From Chlorobium sp. (GTDB taxonomy: Bacteria; Bacteroidota; Chlorobiia; Chlorobiales; Chlorobiaceae), in contig SZXX01000036.1 of the NCBI GenBank assembly GCA_005843825.1, positions 1 to 36,530 of the forward strand: a stretch of 36,530 nucleotides of DNA, read 5' to 3'. Position numbers and translations under genes: made by a program. Positions 6,441-36,471 of the stretch are shown here, one piece after another. Numbering within the stretch: the stretch's first letter is position 1; the number at the start of each line of letters is the position of its first letter. The notes beneath the pieces were generated by a model, which saw only the letters and a program-made list of their open reading frames with translations, was not told where the DNA came from and did not search any database.

Positions 6441-7376
6441 TCAGCGCATGGATTCCAGGAAGCGCTCGGCATCGACGGCTGCCATACATCCGGTTCCTAC
6501 TGCGGTGACGGCCTGGCGATAGGTAAAGTCCTGAACATCTCCACAGGCAAAAACACCGGGGACATTGGTTTCTGTCGATGATTTTTTTGTGAGAATATAG
6601 CCGTAGTCATCAGTATCGATCTGTCCGTTGAAGAGCTTTGAATTCGGCTCGTGACCAATAGCTAAAAAGACTCCATCACATGGGTGAATATGGAGTTCAC
6701 CGGTCTGCACATTTTTCAGGCGAATGCCGGTAACTTTTTGACCATCTCCGAGAATTTCATCAATTACCTGATTGACCATCGTGCTGATTTTCGCATTTTT
6801 ACGAGTACGGAGCGTCATTATTTTTGAGGCTCTGAACTCTTCGCGACGATGAACAAGAGTAACATGAGATGCGAATTTGGTCAGATAGAGGGCTTCTTCC
6901 ATTGCTGTATCTCCCCCACCAACAACAACGATATTACAATCACGGAAGAAAAATCCATCACAGGTCGCACAGGCTGATACGCCTTTACCTCGATAACGGT
7001 TTTCAGACTCTATGCCGAGCCATTTTGCGTTTGCTCCAGTCGCAATAATCAGCGAGCGGGTAAAATATTCTCGACCATCATCAAGCGTAAGACAGAACGG
7101 GCTTCTTGAAAGATCTACTTCAGTCACACTGCCACTGATAAACTCTGCGCCGAATTTGGTCGCCTGATCGCGCATTTTTCCCATAAGTTCAGGTCCACGG
7201 ATTCCTTCAGGAAAGCCGGGGAAATTTTCAATCTCTGTGGTGATCATAAGCTGGCCGCCCGGCTGGAATCCATCGATGACGAGCGGTTTGAGGTTTGCCC
7301 GTCCAGTATAGATGGCCGCCGCATATCCGGCAGGTCCGGTTCCCATGATGATTATATCGCGTACTTCAGAGTCCAT
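6441..7376 (-). CDS. trxB: Thioredoxin reductase (NADPH, FAD-dependent)
   Basis: This 311-residue low-molecular-weight thioredoxin reductase transfers electrons from NADPH through FAD and a redox disulfide to thioredoxin in the cytoplasm. Visible motifs are the N-terminal FAD Rossmann motif GTGPAGYAAA, the redox pair Cys136/Cys139 in ACATCDG, the NADPH-binding motif VVGGGDTAMEEA, and the C-terminal FAD motif GVFACGDVQD followed by YRQAVTAVGTGCMAA. Length is normal. It lies 89 bases downstream of a thioredoxin gene on the same strand, so the pair is probably a trxA-trxB operon. A strong hairpin sits in the spacer. Confidence 0.96.
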   Translation of the reverse strand: MDSEVRDIIIMGTGPAGYAAAIYTGRANLKPLVIDGFQPGGQLMITTEIENFPGFPEGIRGPELMGKMRDQATKFGAEFISGSVTEVDLSRSPFCLTLDDGREYFTRSLIIATGANAKWLGIESENRYRGKGVSACATCDGFFFRDCNIVVVGGGDTAMEEALYLTKFASHVTLVHRREEFRASKIMTLRTRKNAKISTMVNQVIDEILGDGQKVTGIRLKNVQTGELHIHPCDGVFLAIGHEPNSKLFNGQIDTDDYGYILTKKSSTETNVPGVFACGDVQDFTYRQAVTAVGTGCMAAVDAERFLESMR

Positions 7377-7465: not shown

Positions 7466-7795
7466 TCAGTTGAGATGCTCATCAATTTTTTTTGAGATCT
7501 GGTTTTTCGGCAGGGCTCCCAGCATTTGATCAACAACCTTGCCATTTTTAAACACAAGAAGAGCGGGAATACTCCTGATGCCAAACTGTGCTGCAACTCC
7601 GGGGTTTTCATCAACATTAAGCTTTGCAATGACTGCCTTTCCTTCATAATCACCTGCAAGTTCTTCAATAACAGGTCCCAGCATCATGCAAGGGCCACAC
7701 CAGGTTGCCCAGAAATCCACCAGCGCAACTTTATCTGAGTCGAGAATCTCGGATTTGAAATTCACATCGGTTGCTGCAAGATATTTTCCACTCAT
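7466..7795 (-). CDS. trxA: Thioredoxin 1 (trxB-proximal copy)
   Basis: A 109-residue classical thioredoxin with the active-site WCGPC (Cys33, Cys36), preceding VALVDFWA, and the cis-proline loop SIPALLVFKNG. It reduces protein disulfides and is recharged by the adjacent thioredoxin reductase. It differs from the second thioredoxin just upstream at about 14 of 109 positions, so the two arose by tandem duplication. Likely cotranscribed with trxB. Confidence 0.97.
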   Translation of the reverse strand: MSGKYLAATDVNFKSEILDSDKVALVDFWATWCGPCMMLGPVIEELAGDYEGKAVIAKLNVDENPGVAAQFGIRSIPALLVFKNGKVVDQMLGALPKNQISKKIDEHLN

Positions 7796-8093: not shown

Positions 8094-8423
8094 TCAGCTG
8101 ATGTGCTCGTCGATTTTTTTTGAGATCTGGTTTTTCGGCAGAGCACCAAGCATCTGATCAACGACCTGACCGTTTTTGAACACAAGAAGGGAGGGGATGC
8201 TTCTGATGCCGTACTGTGCTGCTGTAGCAGGATTTTCGTCAACATTGAGCTTTGCAATGACTGCCTTTCCTTCGTAATCACCTGCAAGCTCTTCAATAAC
8301 CGGACCGAGCATCATGCAAGGGCCACACCATGCCGCCCAGAAGTCGACCAAGGCAACTTTATCTGATTCAAGGATCTCTTTCTGAAAATTCTGGTCGGTT
8401 GCTACAAAATATTTTCCGCTCAT
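8094..8423 (-). CDS. trxA: Thioredoxin 2 (tandem paralogue)
   Basis: A 109-residue thioredoxin with an intact WCGPC active site (Cys33, Cys36) and cis-proline loop SIPSLLVFKNG. About 87 percent identical to the neighbouring copy by direct residue count; most changes are in the first 19 residues and around the loop after NVDENP. Both catalytic centres are intact, so neither copy is obviously decaying. It lies downstream of dnaE on the same strand, but with a 99-base AT-rich gap, so it may have its own promoter. Confidence 0.97.
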   Translation of the reverse strand: MSGKYFVATDQNFQKEILESDKVALVDFWAAWCGPCMMLGPVIEELAGDYEGKAVIAKLNVDENPATAAQYGIRSIPSLLVFKNGQVVDQMLGALPKNQISKKIDEHIS

Positions 8424-16202: not shown

Positions 16203-18143
16203 TTAGCCGATAGTCATCATTACTTCGCCCATTGATACTGTACCGCCTTTTACTGCTGTGATGGTTAGCACTTTACCTGCACAGGGTGCTTTGACCGGGT
16301 TTTCCATCTTCATTGCCTCTATAACAGCGACCTCTTCTCCTTCTTTTACTTCATCACCGACGCTGACTGATATGGCGTGCACGTTGCCTGGCATGACGGC
16401 GAGGACGGGAGTGCCCTCTAAGTCCTGAGTGCTGAGTGCTGAGTGCTGAGTACTCAAGGCTGAGGGTTCTGAAGAAGAGGGGGTCGGGTTGAGGGATGAG
16501 CCTTCGGCGAAAGAGACTGTGAAAGGGGCTCCGTCGACGAAGACGTTGAAGCTACCTGACATTGAGATGACTTTTGAGCCGGTTGCAGATGCCGGGGTGG
16601 TTGCCTGCGGGACAGGTTTTGAAAAGAGATCAACAAGCCTTTTGTTGACCTCCTCCTGATGGACATCATGTTTGTGAGCTTCGTGGTAAGCCGCGACGAC
16701 TTCCTCTCTGGTTTTTGCCTTGATTTCGACAGCGATATCGGCTTTGTAGCGGATGCCGGTAGAACAATCACCCTTGAGGAAAGCGATACCTTTGTCGCCG
16801 CATGTTGCTGCGATAAAAATATTTTCGTCGGTTTCGGGTAGACCGGCTTTCTGAAGAAGCGAAATATTATAAGGGATGCCGAGCACAGGGTTACGGTCGT
16901 TGATGTCGTGAACGTCTTCAATCGTGGGCTCAAGACCAAGCTGCTCGGATGCCAGACGGACAACTTCAGGATCAGGGCTTGCCGGCGTATGACCGAAGTA
17001 ACCGAGCACCATTTTTCCATATCCGTCAGTGATCTTTTTCCAGGGGCCTTGAATGGTATTAGCAAACGCCTGCTGAATGTAGAACTGGGAAACTGGGGTG
17101 ACCGATGAGCCGTAGCCGCCCTTCACAACTGCTTCGCGCATATTTTTAATGACCTGGGGCAAGAGATGAAGCGTATTGTTGTCGCGCATCATCTGGGTAT
17201 TGGCTGTAAGGGCTCCTCCGGGCATGGGAGAAAATGAGATCACGGGATTGACCGCTGTGGCCTCGGGGGGCATGTAATATTTGTACATCTGATCGATAAA
17301 GAGAGCCTCGACTTCAAGGTATTTTTCATGATCGATGTCAAGGGTATAGCCGGTACCCCGGAGCCTCTGCCACATGGTAAGAATATCGACAGCTGCCGTT
17401 CCTCCGCTGACCGGAGCCATTGAAAGATCAATGATATCAGCACCACCTTCTATTGCTGCAAAGTTGCATGCGACGCCCATCCCTGCTGTATCGTGTGTAT
17501 GAAACTCGATTTCGGTGCCTGCGGGAAGCATTTTTCTTGCGCCTTTAATGGTCTCGTGGACAACAGCTGGTGTCGTTGTTCCGGACGCATCCTTGAAGGC
17601 AACACTGTCGTAAGGGATTCCGGCATCAAGTATTTCCTGCAGTTTGTCGAGATAGAACTGCGGTGTATGACAATAGGTTTCGGTCAGTCCGGGAGGAAGA
17701 CCCATCATGGCTATGACGACCTGATGCCGAAGGCCTGCATTATGAATACATTGACCGGAATAGGCAAGATTGCGAACATCCATCAACGCATCAAAATTAC
17801 GGATAGTTGTTATTCCGTGCTTTTTGAAAAGCCGGGCATGAAGATCGATAATATCGCGGGATTGAGATACCAGACCGACAACGTTAGCTCCTCTTGAAAG
17901 AGTCTGCAGGTTGATGTCAGGCCCTACAATCTTGCGCGCAGCATCCATCATGGCAAATGCATCCTCTTCGCAATAAAAGTAGAGACTCTGAAAACGTGCT
18001 CCACCGCCTATTTCAAAGTTGTCGGTACCTGCGTGAACAGCTGCTTCCAAAGCAGGAAGAAAATCTTCCGTCTTTACCCTGGCGCCAAAACATGACTGAA
18101 ATCCGTCACGAAAGGAGACGTCCATAAATCTGATTTTTTTCAT
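16203..18143 (-). CDS. Biotin-dependent carboxyltransferase: pyruvate carboxylase subunit B / oxaloacetate decarboxylase alpha type
   Basis: A 646-residue protein with an HMGL-like carboxyltransferase TIM barrel (MDVSFRDGFQS near the N-terminus; VAFKDASG with the catalytic Lys; EFHTHDTAGMG with metal-binding His). A conserved carboxylase middle domain and a C-terminal biotinyl domain with IEAMKMENP follow, biotin on about Lys612. There is no biotin carboxylase domain, so it must work either with a separate BC subunit as a two-subunit pyruvate carboxylase or as an OadA-type decarboxylase. Given the fumarase neighbour, a role in making oxaloacetate for the reductive TCA cycle is the likelier reading (inference). 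The linker at about residues 560-580 contains SALSTQHSALSTQ, encoded by an intergenic-type heptamer repeat. Confidence 0.9.
   Translation of the reverse strand: MKKIRFMDVSFRDGFQSCFGARVKTEDFLPALEAAVHAGTDNFEIGGGARFQSLYFYCEEDAFAMMDAARKIVGPDINLQTLSRGANVVGLVSQSRDIIDLHARLFKKHGITTIRNFDALMDVRNLAYSGQCIHNAGLRHQVVIAMMGLPPGLTETYCHTPQFYLDKLQEILDAGIPYDSVAFKDASGTTTPAVVHETIKGARKMLPAGTEIEFHTHDTAGMGVACNFAAIEGGADIIDLSMAPVSGGTAAVDILTMWQRLRGTGYTLDIDHEKYLEVEALFIDQMYKYYMPPEATAVNPVISFSPMPGGALTANTQMMRDNNTLHLLPQVIKNMREAVVKGGYGSSVTPVSQFYIQQAFANTIQGPWKKITDGYGKMVLGYFGHTPASPDPEVVRLASEQLGLEPTIEDVHDINDRNPVLGIPYNISLLQKAGLPETDENIFIAATCGDKGIAFLKGDCSTGIRYKADIAVEIKAKTREEVVAAYHEAHKHDVHQEEVNKRLVDLFSKPVPQATTPASATGSKVISMSGSFNVFVDGAPFTVSFAEGSSLNPTPSSSEPSALSTQHSALSTQDLEGTPVLAVMPGNVHAISVSVGDEVKEGEEVAVIEAMKMENPVKAPCAGKVLTITAVKGGTVSMGEVMMTIG
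16423..16467 (+). repeat. GTGCTGA heptamer array inside the carboxylase coding sequence
   Basis: At least three full GTGCTGA units, flanked by degenerate ones, lie within the linker-coding part of the carboxylase gene. On the minus strand each unit reads TCAGCAC. Seven codons of it give SALSTQH with no stop in any frame, so the reading frame survives. On the plus strand the same array would introduce TGA. Confidence 0.85.
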
Positions 18144-20441: not shown

Positions 20442-21998
20442 ATGGAGCAGTTAGCCGAGGCATTGAGACACGAAAGTGCATATCCCCATGCAACGGGCAG
20501 AATTGAGGTTGTTGAAACCCATATTTCCTGGATATTCCTCACAGAGTCATTTGCCTACAAGGTAAAAAAAGGAGTGGAGCTCGGGTTTCTTGATTTTTCA
20601 ACTCTGGAGAAACGCCGATACTTCTGCAATGAGGAGCTTCGCCTCAACCAAAGACTTTGCCCTGAAATTTACCTCTCTGTAGTACCTGTGGTGCAATCGG
20701 GAACCTCTTTTTTTATTGACGGCGAGGGAGAAATTGTTGACTATGCCGTTAAGATGGTGCGGTTTGACAGAACAATGGAGCTTGACAGGATGCTTTCATC
20801 CGGTGAGCTCAATACAATGCATGTCGATATTCTTTCCTCCCTTATTTCCGGATTTCATCAAAGCATTCCCGCGGTTTCGGCTGAAACTGGATTTGGTCAT
20901 CCCGACAATCTCATCAAGCCGATGCTTGCCAATTTCACCCATACGGAACCGGCAGCGTCAAACAGGGCTGAAGCAATAAGGCTTGAGTCTCTAAAACAAT
21001 GGACTCTCGAGGAACATCAACGGCTCTCTCCCCTTTTTGTAGAGAGACAACAAGGAGGTTTTATCCGGCAATGCCACGGTGATATGCATACCGGCAATAT
21101 GGTCTGGTGGAAGAAGAGGATTTTTATTTTTGACTGTATCGAGTTCAATGATAATCTCAGCATAATAGATGTTATCAGCGATCTGGCTTTTCTTTTCATG
21201 GATCTTGAACATGCCGGATACCCTGCATTTGCCTGGAGGCTTGTGAACAACTATCTGACGGAAACCGGTGATTACGGCGCACTCCCCCTGCTCAGGTTTT
21301 ATTGTGTATACAGAGCTATGGTAAGGGCAAAAGTCACCGCTATCCGCTACACACAAACCACAGAACAGAGCGCCCTGAAAACAATCCTGCAAGAACATTT
21401 TTCTTACCTCCAACTGGCAGAGCACTACACTCATAAACCAAAGCCATTACTGATTCTGACTTCCGGAGTTTCAGGAAGCGGAAAAACCAGCCTTTCACGT
21501 GAAATCGCTCAAACACTACAGGCTGTGCATGTGCGGTCGGATGTTGAGAGGAAGAGGCTTGCGGGGTTGAAGGCATTGGAAAAAAGCGATAAAGCAACAG
21601 ATGCTTCACTGTATAGTGAGGAAAAGAGTCGTGCGACTTATAAACGACTGCTTACTGTTGCAACACTCTGCATTGCGGATGGATTGAGAGTGATTGTGGA
21701 TGCAACTTTTCTCACCGCTGAAACCCGTCAACTTTTTTTGGCTGAGGGCCGACAGTTGCATTGCGAATGCAGGATTCTTCATTTTCATGCTCCAAGAGAG
21801 GTACTTATTGAACGAGTTCAGAGGCGCTTTCTGATGGGGAACGATGCATCCGAAGCTGATATCAGTGTGCTTATGTCACAGCTTGAAAAGCAGGAGGCGT
21901 TGACTGTGGAAGAGGAGATGATTACGATACGAATCAACACTGCTGAGGCTGTTGATGTTGGGGATGTTTGTGAGAAAGTGCTGAGTGCTGAGTGCTGA
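20442..21998 (+). CDS. Bifunctional aminoglycoside-phosphotransferase-like kinase fused to a P-loop ATPase/kinase domain
   Basis: A 518-residue protein with two nucleotide-binding halves. The N-terminal half is a kinase-like phosphotransferase: AYKVKK, catalytic loop HGDMHTGN (His212, Asp214, Asn219) and metal motif FIFDCIEFN. The C-terminal half has Walker A GVSGSGKTS (342-350) and a zeta-toxin/gluconate-kinase-like fold with VIVDATFLTAE and a lid-like HFHAPREVLIERVQRR. Fusions of this sort are widespread but of unknown substrate; true aminoglycoside resistance should not be assumed. A strong AAGGAG at 20432-20437 fixes the ATG. The last residues, VLSAEC, and the TGA stop are encoded by GTGCTGA repeats, so the C-terminus was rewritten by the repeat. 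Confidence 0.9.
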   Translation: MEQLAEALRHESAYPHATGRIEVVETHISWIFLTESFAYKVKKGVELGFLDFSTLEKRRYFCNEELRLNQRLCPEIYLSVVPVVQSGTSFFIDGEGEIVDYAVKMVRFDRTMELDRMLSSGELNTMHVDILSSLISGFHQSIPAVSAETGFGHPDNLIKPMLANFTHTEPAASNRAEAIRLESLKQWTLEEHQRLSPLFVERQQGGFIRQCHGDMHTGNMVWWKKRIFIFDCIEFNDNLSIIDVISDLAFLFMDLEHAGYPAFAWRLVNNYLTETGDYGALPLLRFYCVYRAMVRAKVTAIRYTQTTEQSALKTILQEHFSYLQLAEHYTHKPKPLLILTSGVSGSGKTSLSREIAQTLQAVHVRSDVERKRLAGLKALEKSDKATDASLYSEEKSRATYKRLLTVATLCIADGLRVIVDATFLTAETRQLFLAEGRQLHCECRILHFHAPREVLIERVQRRFLMGNDASEADISVLMSQLEKQEALTVEEEMITIRINTAEAVDVGDVCEKVLSAEC

Positions 21999-30790: not shown

Positions 30791-30797
30791 AGAAGAA

Positions 30798-31005
30798 GTG
30801 CTGAGTGCTGAGGGCCGAGGGCTGAGCGAAATCAAAAAAGTCGGCAGTTGGCAGTCTGCAATTGGCAGTGGAAGATAGTGCTGAGTGATAAGGCCTGAGC
30901 GAAATCACAACCGTTGGCAGGGGGAAATCAGGATCGTTGGCAGTGAGCTGTGAAGACTGGGTGAATAGGGCTTGGGACTGCCTACTGCGCACTGCTGACT
31001 GGACT
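30798..31005 (+). repeat. Composite intergenic repeat, copy G, with an inverted GGCAGT section
   Basis: GTGCTGAGTGCTGAGGGCCG, GCTGAGCGAAATCA (twice, 30821 and 30894), GGCAGTTGGCAGTCTGC (30843-30859), GTGCTGAGTGATAAGG, a decamer remnant GAATAGGGCTTGGGAC, then GACTGCCTACTGCGCACTGC (30977-30996), the reverse complement of GGCAGT-type units. The opposed arms could fold into a long imperfect hairpin. It lies between prfC and the histidine kinase. Confidence 0.75.
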
Positions 31006-35811: not shown

Positions 35812-36471
35812 TTAGTGGCATGAAGCGCAGCTTGCCTTTGTCCGGCGATGTAATTCGTCGTTCGGGGCTCCGTTGTTTACTGGTTGGCTGCTGCTGGTAT
35901 TTCCAATGGAATTGAATCCCGGGCTTGCAGGCTCTTCAGATTCCTGCAAGCGGGAAGCAGGAGGCTCAGACGCTTGTTTCTCGTTATCATCCTCTTCGAA
36001 GTCGTGCCGCTGGGATTGTTCAACATCTGCCGTTGCATTGTCATTCGCTGCCGGGACTTCATCATCAAGTAGTTCCTGCGAACTGGCAATCTCTTTTCCG
36101 GAAGTCAGAACGGACGAAGACGGCTGAAAGTGGGCGTAGGTGCCTATGGCAACACATGATGTTACAATCACTGTAACCAGCAGCTCTGCGGGACGGCGAA
36201 ACCCTTCGGCTTTCTTCTTCGTGAGATATGATAAAAAAGCTGTCCGGTTGACGAAAAAAAGATGGTAAAGAGCAAAAAGGGTAAAAACAAGACTGAAGAT
36301 AATATGCTGATTCAGCCATGCAGGTTTTGTGAGGCCACCGAAACTCGTTACAAAACCAGAAGCACTTACGCCCGGATAAACGTAGAGGATCACTCCTGAA
36401 ATGAGCAGAATCAAAAAAGAGAGAAACAGGGTATAGCTTGTAAGTATTCGCCAGCTGAAAGACTTTTTCAT
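35812..36471 (-). CDS. Small membrane protein (DUF4405/cytochrome-b-like) ending in a C-terminal CxxCH motif
   Basis: A 219-residue protein. Three membrane helices in the first 125 residues: LFLSFLILLISGVILYVY, HIIFSLVFTLFALYHLFF (two His 14 residues apart, as for a b-haem or the DUF4405 pattern) and LLVTVIVTSCVAIGTYAHF. Then a long, acidic, Ser/Gln-rich linker of low complexity (about 126-205), and last KASCASCH immediately followed by TAA. CASCH is a canonical covalent haem c attachment site, but no residues follow for a distal ligand. It may be a tail-displayed electron-transfer haem, or a truncated c-type cytochrome. No partner gene is visible before the window edge. Confidence 0.75.
   Translation of the reverse strand: MKKSFSWRILTSYTLFLSFLILLISGVILYVYPGVSASGFVTSFGGLTKPAWLNQHIIFSLVFTLFALYHLFFVNRTAFLSYLTKKKAEGFRRPAELLVTVIVTSCVAIGTYAHFQPSSSVLTSGKEIASSQELLDDEVPAANDNATADVEQSQRHDFEEDDNEKQASEPPASRLQESEEPASPGFNSIGNTSSSQPVNNGAPNDELHRRTKASCASCH

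Follow-up and report, generated by a model that had tools for sequence, protein, structure and literature searches.

A DUF4405 membrane protein of Chlorobium that ends in a conserved haem c attachment motif

The window, i.e. the whole stretch of 36,530 nucleotides that was analysed, is an entire contig (G000:C29) of a Chlorobium genome of 2.55 Mb that is 98% complete. Close to one end, an ORF with an ATG start encodes a protein of 219 aa with the C-terminus ...NDELHRRTKASCASCH; the positions of its parts are listed in Table 1. An earlier sequence-only reading had placed a haem c motif, CASCH, directly before the stop codon, and this was confirmed by reading the ORF: the TAA follows straight after the final His (sequence end LHRRTKASCASCH). 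The contig edge lies 59 bp upstream of the ATG, so that the gene is whole but its upstream neighbour is absent from the contig.

Table 1. Features of the gene for the 219-aa protein (window positions; residues numbered from the start of the protein)
Feature	Position	Strand	Basis
Whole gene, DUF4405 membrane protein with C-terminal haem tail, 219 aa	35812..36471	-	PF14358 match
Membrane helix 1, residues 7-31	36379..36453	-	AlphaFold2 model and hydropathy
Helix 2, residues 49-74, with invariant His56 and His70	36250..36327	-	AlphaFold2 model and alignment
His56 codon, predicted haem b ligand	36304-36306	-	His in 62/62 rows
His70 codon, predicted haem b ligand	36262-36264	-	His in 62/62 rows
Membrane helix 3, residues 94-112	36136..36192	-	AlphaFold2 model
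Acidic disordered linker, residues 114-201	35869..36132	-	pLDDT mostly <50; low identity, dN/dS 0.58
Conserved haem tail APNDELHRRTKASCASCH, residues 202-219	35815..35868	-	Conservation and tail profile
His208 codon, probable distal ligand	35848-35850	-	Invariance in alignment
CASCH haem c attachment motif, residues 215-219	35815..35829	-	Sequence
TAA stop	35812..35814	-	Directly after His codon

The protein matched the Pfam family DUF4405 (PF14358; E 8e-12, 45.9 bits against a curated cut-off of 26.7), as did 16/16 relatives scanned with Pfam. AlphaFold2 and hydropathy gave three hydrophobic helices, the approximate limits of which are given in Table 1, in a model of the 219-aa protein that was weak (pTM 0.45 at best). 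His56 and His70, which are 14 residues apart, are the sole conserved His of the DUF4405 domain and are invariant in 62/62 aligned relatives. The pair of His ascribed earlier to the three membrane helices thus exists, but helix 2 holds both. Two haem b ligands spaced 14 residues apart on one helix are also found in cytochrome b of the bc1 complex. A Foldseek search with the weak model returned nothing significant, and a PDB sequence search with the family profile gave no relevant match. In a second structural alignment, hydrogenase-1 cytochrome b and mycobacterial cytochrome b were listed at Z about 6 together with unrelated helical proteins, a result without weight either way.

According to PMC11334425, a DUF4405 protein and FezC have been purified, both with haem b spectra. 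The DUF4405 protein described there is made of six helices, with four His at the centre; FezC, for which a homodimer was modelled, forms a similar haem site by homodimerisation. The 219-aa protein shares the Pfam family with these DUF4405 proteins and has a conserved membrane His pair, and its three-helix chain would fit the FezC arrangement. Because each chain has three helices and one His pair, this half-size form is expected to dimerise as FezC does, and a homodimer that completes the haem sites is likely. The membrane part had been read as an anchor; it holds the tail but probably does more, since DUF4405 proteins tested elsewhere are haem b cytochromes (PMC11334425). Unlike the 219-aa protein, the DUF4405 protein and FezC are linked there to flavinylation or ferrosomes, and the text consulted does not mention a tail with a haem c motif for them. 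Among the neighbours in the window or at locus L032, no P-type ATPase of a ferrosome fez cluster was recognised by eye.

The helices are followed by a region, from about residue 114 to the late 190s, with pLDDT mostly <50. Residues 133-201 contain 17 Asp/Glu versus 3 Lys/Arg, which bears out the long acidic disordered linker proposed earlier. Among relatives, the linker is 56-142 aa long and variable in sequence. In 34 sequences, mean pairwise identity was 0.62 for the membrane part, 0.19 for the linker and 0.78 for the tail, and the median dN/dS values were 0.19, 0.58 and 0.15, respectively. This pattern says that the tail and the membrane part matter and that the linker would need only to be long, flexible and usually acidic. 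In this respect the earlier reading is supported: a membrane domain with a conserved His pair carries a flexible acidic tail with a haem c motif, under purifying selection. In the 35 tail-bearing rows, the net charge averaged +2.5 at the N-terminus, +1.1 in loop 1, +3.8 in loop 2 and -7.4 in the C-terminal part. By the positive-inside rule, applied to the loop charges, the N-terminus would lie inside and the tail in the periplasm, which is the site of c-type haem attachment.

The tail has the consensus [QG]AP[DN]D[EAD]LHRRTxxSCx[SA]CH in the 35 rows, although the second R of HRR is not present in all forms (HR(R)). The residues P, D, L, H, R, C, C and H are invariant in 35/35 rows, His208 and His219 being as invariant as the cysteines. 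In 26/35 rows the chain ends at CH, and the other nine add five residues (xxSRW). Homologues from two genera thus keep the terminal CxxCH. Since the 35 aligned sequences keep these residues while the linker varies, the motif exceeds what chance would give; the terminal CASCH is neither chance nor truncation.

Truncation had been the alternative put forward in the sequence-only reading. A folded class I cytochrome c domain, which would comprise about 80 residues starting at the CxxCH, is absent in 35/35 rows, as the stop follows CH directly or five residues later. No continuation of a cytochrome was found in any frame downstream of the stop, and a frameshift or truncation was rejected because no such frame resembles a cytochrome. 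In the genomes searched, we found neither a longer version of the gene nor a relative with a full cytochrome c domain past the CxxCH, and both genera conserve the tail. A truncated or decaying cytochrome would account for the damaged copies in G019 (His lost), G083 (in-frame TGA) and G031 (linker and haem lost), but the aligned sequences all end within five residues of one place and the tail is their best conserved part, so that decay is a most improbable explanation.

In class I cytochromes the distal ligand lies far downstream of the CxxCH, which is what had made a terminal motif seem odd. That rule holds for class I, but the tail site is class III/c7-like, and in multihaem sites of that kind the distal His precedes the CxxCH. 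The distal ligand is probably the invariant His208, located before the CxxCH rather than after it. As the distal His precedes the CxxCH in class III-like sites, a protein can end at this motif, and such an ending would be expected for an excised single haem unit.

A profile built from the 35 tails scored 18-28 bits on every second haem site in the 16- and 18-haem cytochromes of the genus and 22 bits on haem 2 of a secreted dihaem protein; the remaining CxxCH sites scored <8 bits. The SRW of the longer tails corresponds to K/Q-W of the multihaem repeat. Judged by these matches to alternate sites, the tail is one haem unit of the multihaem repeat. The profile of the whole family also picked up small tail-only ORFs, and in four cases a longer DUF4405 paralogue lies just downstream of the ORF. 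These ORFs encode the secreted dihaem protein (e.g. ...IDHSRLSASAQCIRCHKRDQPDDNLHRRTQANCSTCHTTRQWTP) and often follow a class I cytochrome gene. The genome of the window itself has a set of three genes, for a class I cytochrome c, a secreted dihaem protein of 77 residues and, just downstream of the latter, a long DUF4405 paralogue without haem tail (G000:C2, L182:2860-4434). About 20 Chlorobium genomes encode the dihaem protein, in most cases immediately beside DUF4405, and its 48-residue dihaem unit is the one that recurs as a repeat within the 16- and 18-haem cytochromes. On the same contig, a 16-haem cytochrome of 429 aa with 48-residue dihaem repeats adjoins a 191-aa membrane protein (L182:12432-14301), and an 18-haem version is found at G015:C1 (L183:2326-4324). 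The tail may have come from the multihaem cytochromes or from the dihaem protein; the two sources cannot be told apart. With the Pfam models Cytochrome_C7 and Cytochrom_CIII, the dihaem relatives reached 20.8 bits against a cut-off of 24.8, and the tail-bearing proteins scanned gave no match. The 219-aa protein shares with cytochrome c7 and class III multihaem proteins the upstream His ligand and, with those of its own genus, the homology of the site, but it differs from them in being a membrane protein that bears a single haem at the end of a disordered arm, with no second haem next to it.

Taken together, these results indicate that a DUF4405 haem b cytochrome with a minimal class III-like haem c tail is a real, conserved variant that is absent from the literature we found; in the open-licence literature, no description of a DUF4405 protein with a terminal CxxCH was found.

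The magnetochrome domain of MamP/E/T/X (PMC3971196) is likewise a minimal unit for one haem, about 20 residues long, and its sixth ligand also comes a short way ahead of CX2CH. Its minimal unit, [P/T/H]HX5-9CX2CH, has a similar layout, and two members of the family gave weak MamX matches (E about 0.1). In the tail, however, Leu stands before the ligand His in 35/35 rows in place of P/T/H, and in 26/35 rows nothing follows CH, so that the closing hydrophobic residue is mostly missing; on these two points membership was rejected. The organisms and the origin are different as well. Pfam magnetochrome was absent among the matches listed and the Chlorobium multihaem sites matched clearly instead, and it is hardly credible that the tail is a magnetochrome domain.

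We searched genomes of the phylum of the window and added one pattern-limited scan of all species. The tail gene was present in 29/65 Chlorobium genomes (with damaged copies in G019 and G083) and in eight genomes of a sister genus of the Chlorobiaceae; the named relatives are Chlorobium, including C. ferrooxidans DSM 13031, in which the gene is present (L056), and uncultured Chlorobiaceae. Other groups gave no full-length match in a sample of 394 genomes of the phylum, and plasmids gave no match. A tree built from the membrane part alone accounted for the 35 rows with a tail by three changes, versus a mean of 20 after shuffling, and a clade of 39 rows had a support of 97. One gain with later losses is the simplest reading of these counts, and the tail was probably gained once. 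Both the repeat of the long paralogue and the tail are retained in two members (L009 and L055/L117). At L023 (G031:C193) the linker and haem site are apparently lost and the final residues ...HKRSRW are kept, perhaps a recent tail loss. As the tail gene is missing in more than half of the Chlorobium genomes and lost in some lineages, it is dispensable.

No gene neighbourhood was shared beyond subclades, and the neighbours therefore indicate no partner or pathway. In one subclade, a small cytochrome c and a porin-cytochrome fusion are encoded some 2 kb away from the tail gene (L057:8001-12339). Photoferrotrophy was considered and rejected, since co-occurrence of the tail gene with a C. ferrooxidans-type Cyc2 was as expected by chance (10 versus 9.8). 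The values for a second porin-cytochrome type (p 0.02) and for the union (p 0.004) were post hoc and uncorrected for kinship, and were set aside as evidence.

Matches to ResB and CcsA are located about 300 bp apart on contig C33 of the genome of the window. In purified form, CcsBA loads haem onto short peptides with a CXXCH, and the helix next to the motif is not required (PMC8112865). On this basis, CcsBA should also attach haem to a CxxCH at the C-terminus. One might still suppose that the CxxCH carries no haem and is a dithiol or metal site on a flexible arm, as the haem is deduced here from the sequence and the motif comprises 18 residues without a surrounding cytochrome fold. We regard this as very unlikely, given that His219 and His208 are invariant like the cysteines, that homologues of the tail occur as haem sites in multihaem cytochromes and that bacterial systems readily load an exposed CxxCH.

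Our findings suggest that the gene quite probably encodes a small b/c hybrid, i.e. an electron carrier composed of a b-type DUF4405 cytochrome and one class III-like haem c unit. The three DUF4405 helices would hold haem b via His56 and His70, most likely as a FezC-like homodimer, and the C-terminus would leave the membrane on the periplasmic side as a long acidic disordered arm. Its last 14-18 residues would form a single haem c site akin to the 48-residue dihaem repeat, with a His six residues before the CxxCH, and the CcsBA system would attach the haem covalently. The tethered haem would most likely exchange electrons between the membrane haem b, presumably in contact with the menaquinone pool, and periplasmic or multihaem cytochromes, in one direction or the other.

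The tail haem might instead be a fixed link that docks as an extra haem into a multihaem cytochrome, a dihaem protein or the second tail of the homodimer and so ties the wire to the membrane. This reading is close to tethered exchange, most steps being common to both. It would suit the match of the tail to alternate sites of the multihaem repeat, the neighbouring site of which is missing in the tail, and the position of the dihaem protein gene next to a DUF4405 paralogue. However, co-occurrence with the standalone dihaem protein was not above expectation (11 observed versus 9.4 expected) and a conserved neighbourhood with a multihaem gene was not found, and we consider docking unlikely.

Returning to tethered exchange, we tentatively propose, with somewhat less than even confidence, that the last 14-18 residues could be a self-contained bis-His haem c unit smaller than any other described, taken from a multihaem repeat and carried on the disordered arm of a haem b membrane dimer, which would make a one-gene relay from quinol to periplasm by tethered diffusion. 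The case would show how one haem site of a multihaem repeat can be taken out and put to new use as a redox tag at the end of a protein, a natural equivalent of the haem attachment sites introduced by engineering. The magnetochrome, with 19-28 residues, has been called the smallest mono-haem cytochrome (PMC3971196); the Chlorobium tail would equal or undercut it, with an independent origin. At the level of the gene, the tail would also connect the c-type cytochromes of green sulfur bacteria with the DUF4405 haem b cytochromes, a group recognised only recently. PscC (cytochrome cZ, PMC10968294), the reaction-centre cytochrome of green sulfur bacteria and thus from this bacterial family, likewise works with a membrane-anchored mobile C-terminal haem c domain. 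It is built differently, with two membrane helices and a haem domain that is folded and of known crystal structure; no PscC chain was among the PDB sequence matches up to E 10.

Elsewhere in the window, the dispersed repeat TCAGCACTCAGCACTC and its variants gave eight matches versus 0.03 expected (16420-16456, also 21976-21998 and 30796-30818). The repeat lies between genes or at their ends, but is also part of the reading frame of a gene resembling pyruvate carboxylase subunit B (16203-18143), where it encodes SALSTQHSALSTQ before the biotinyl domain. Two near-alike thioredoxin genes stand in tandem (7466-7795 and 8094-8423), with a thioredoxin reductase gene alongside (6441-7376).
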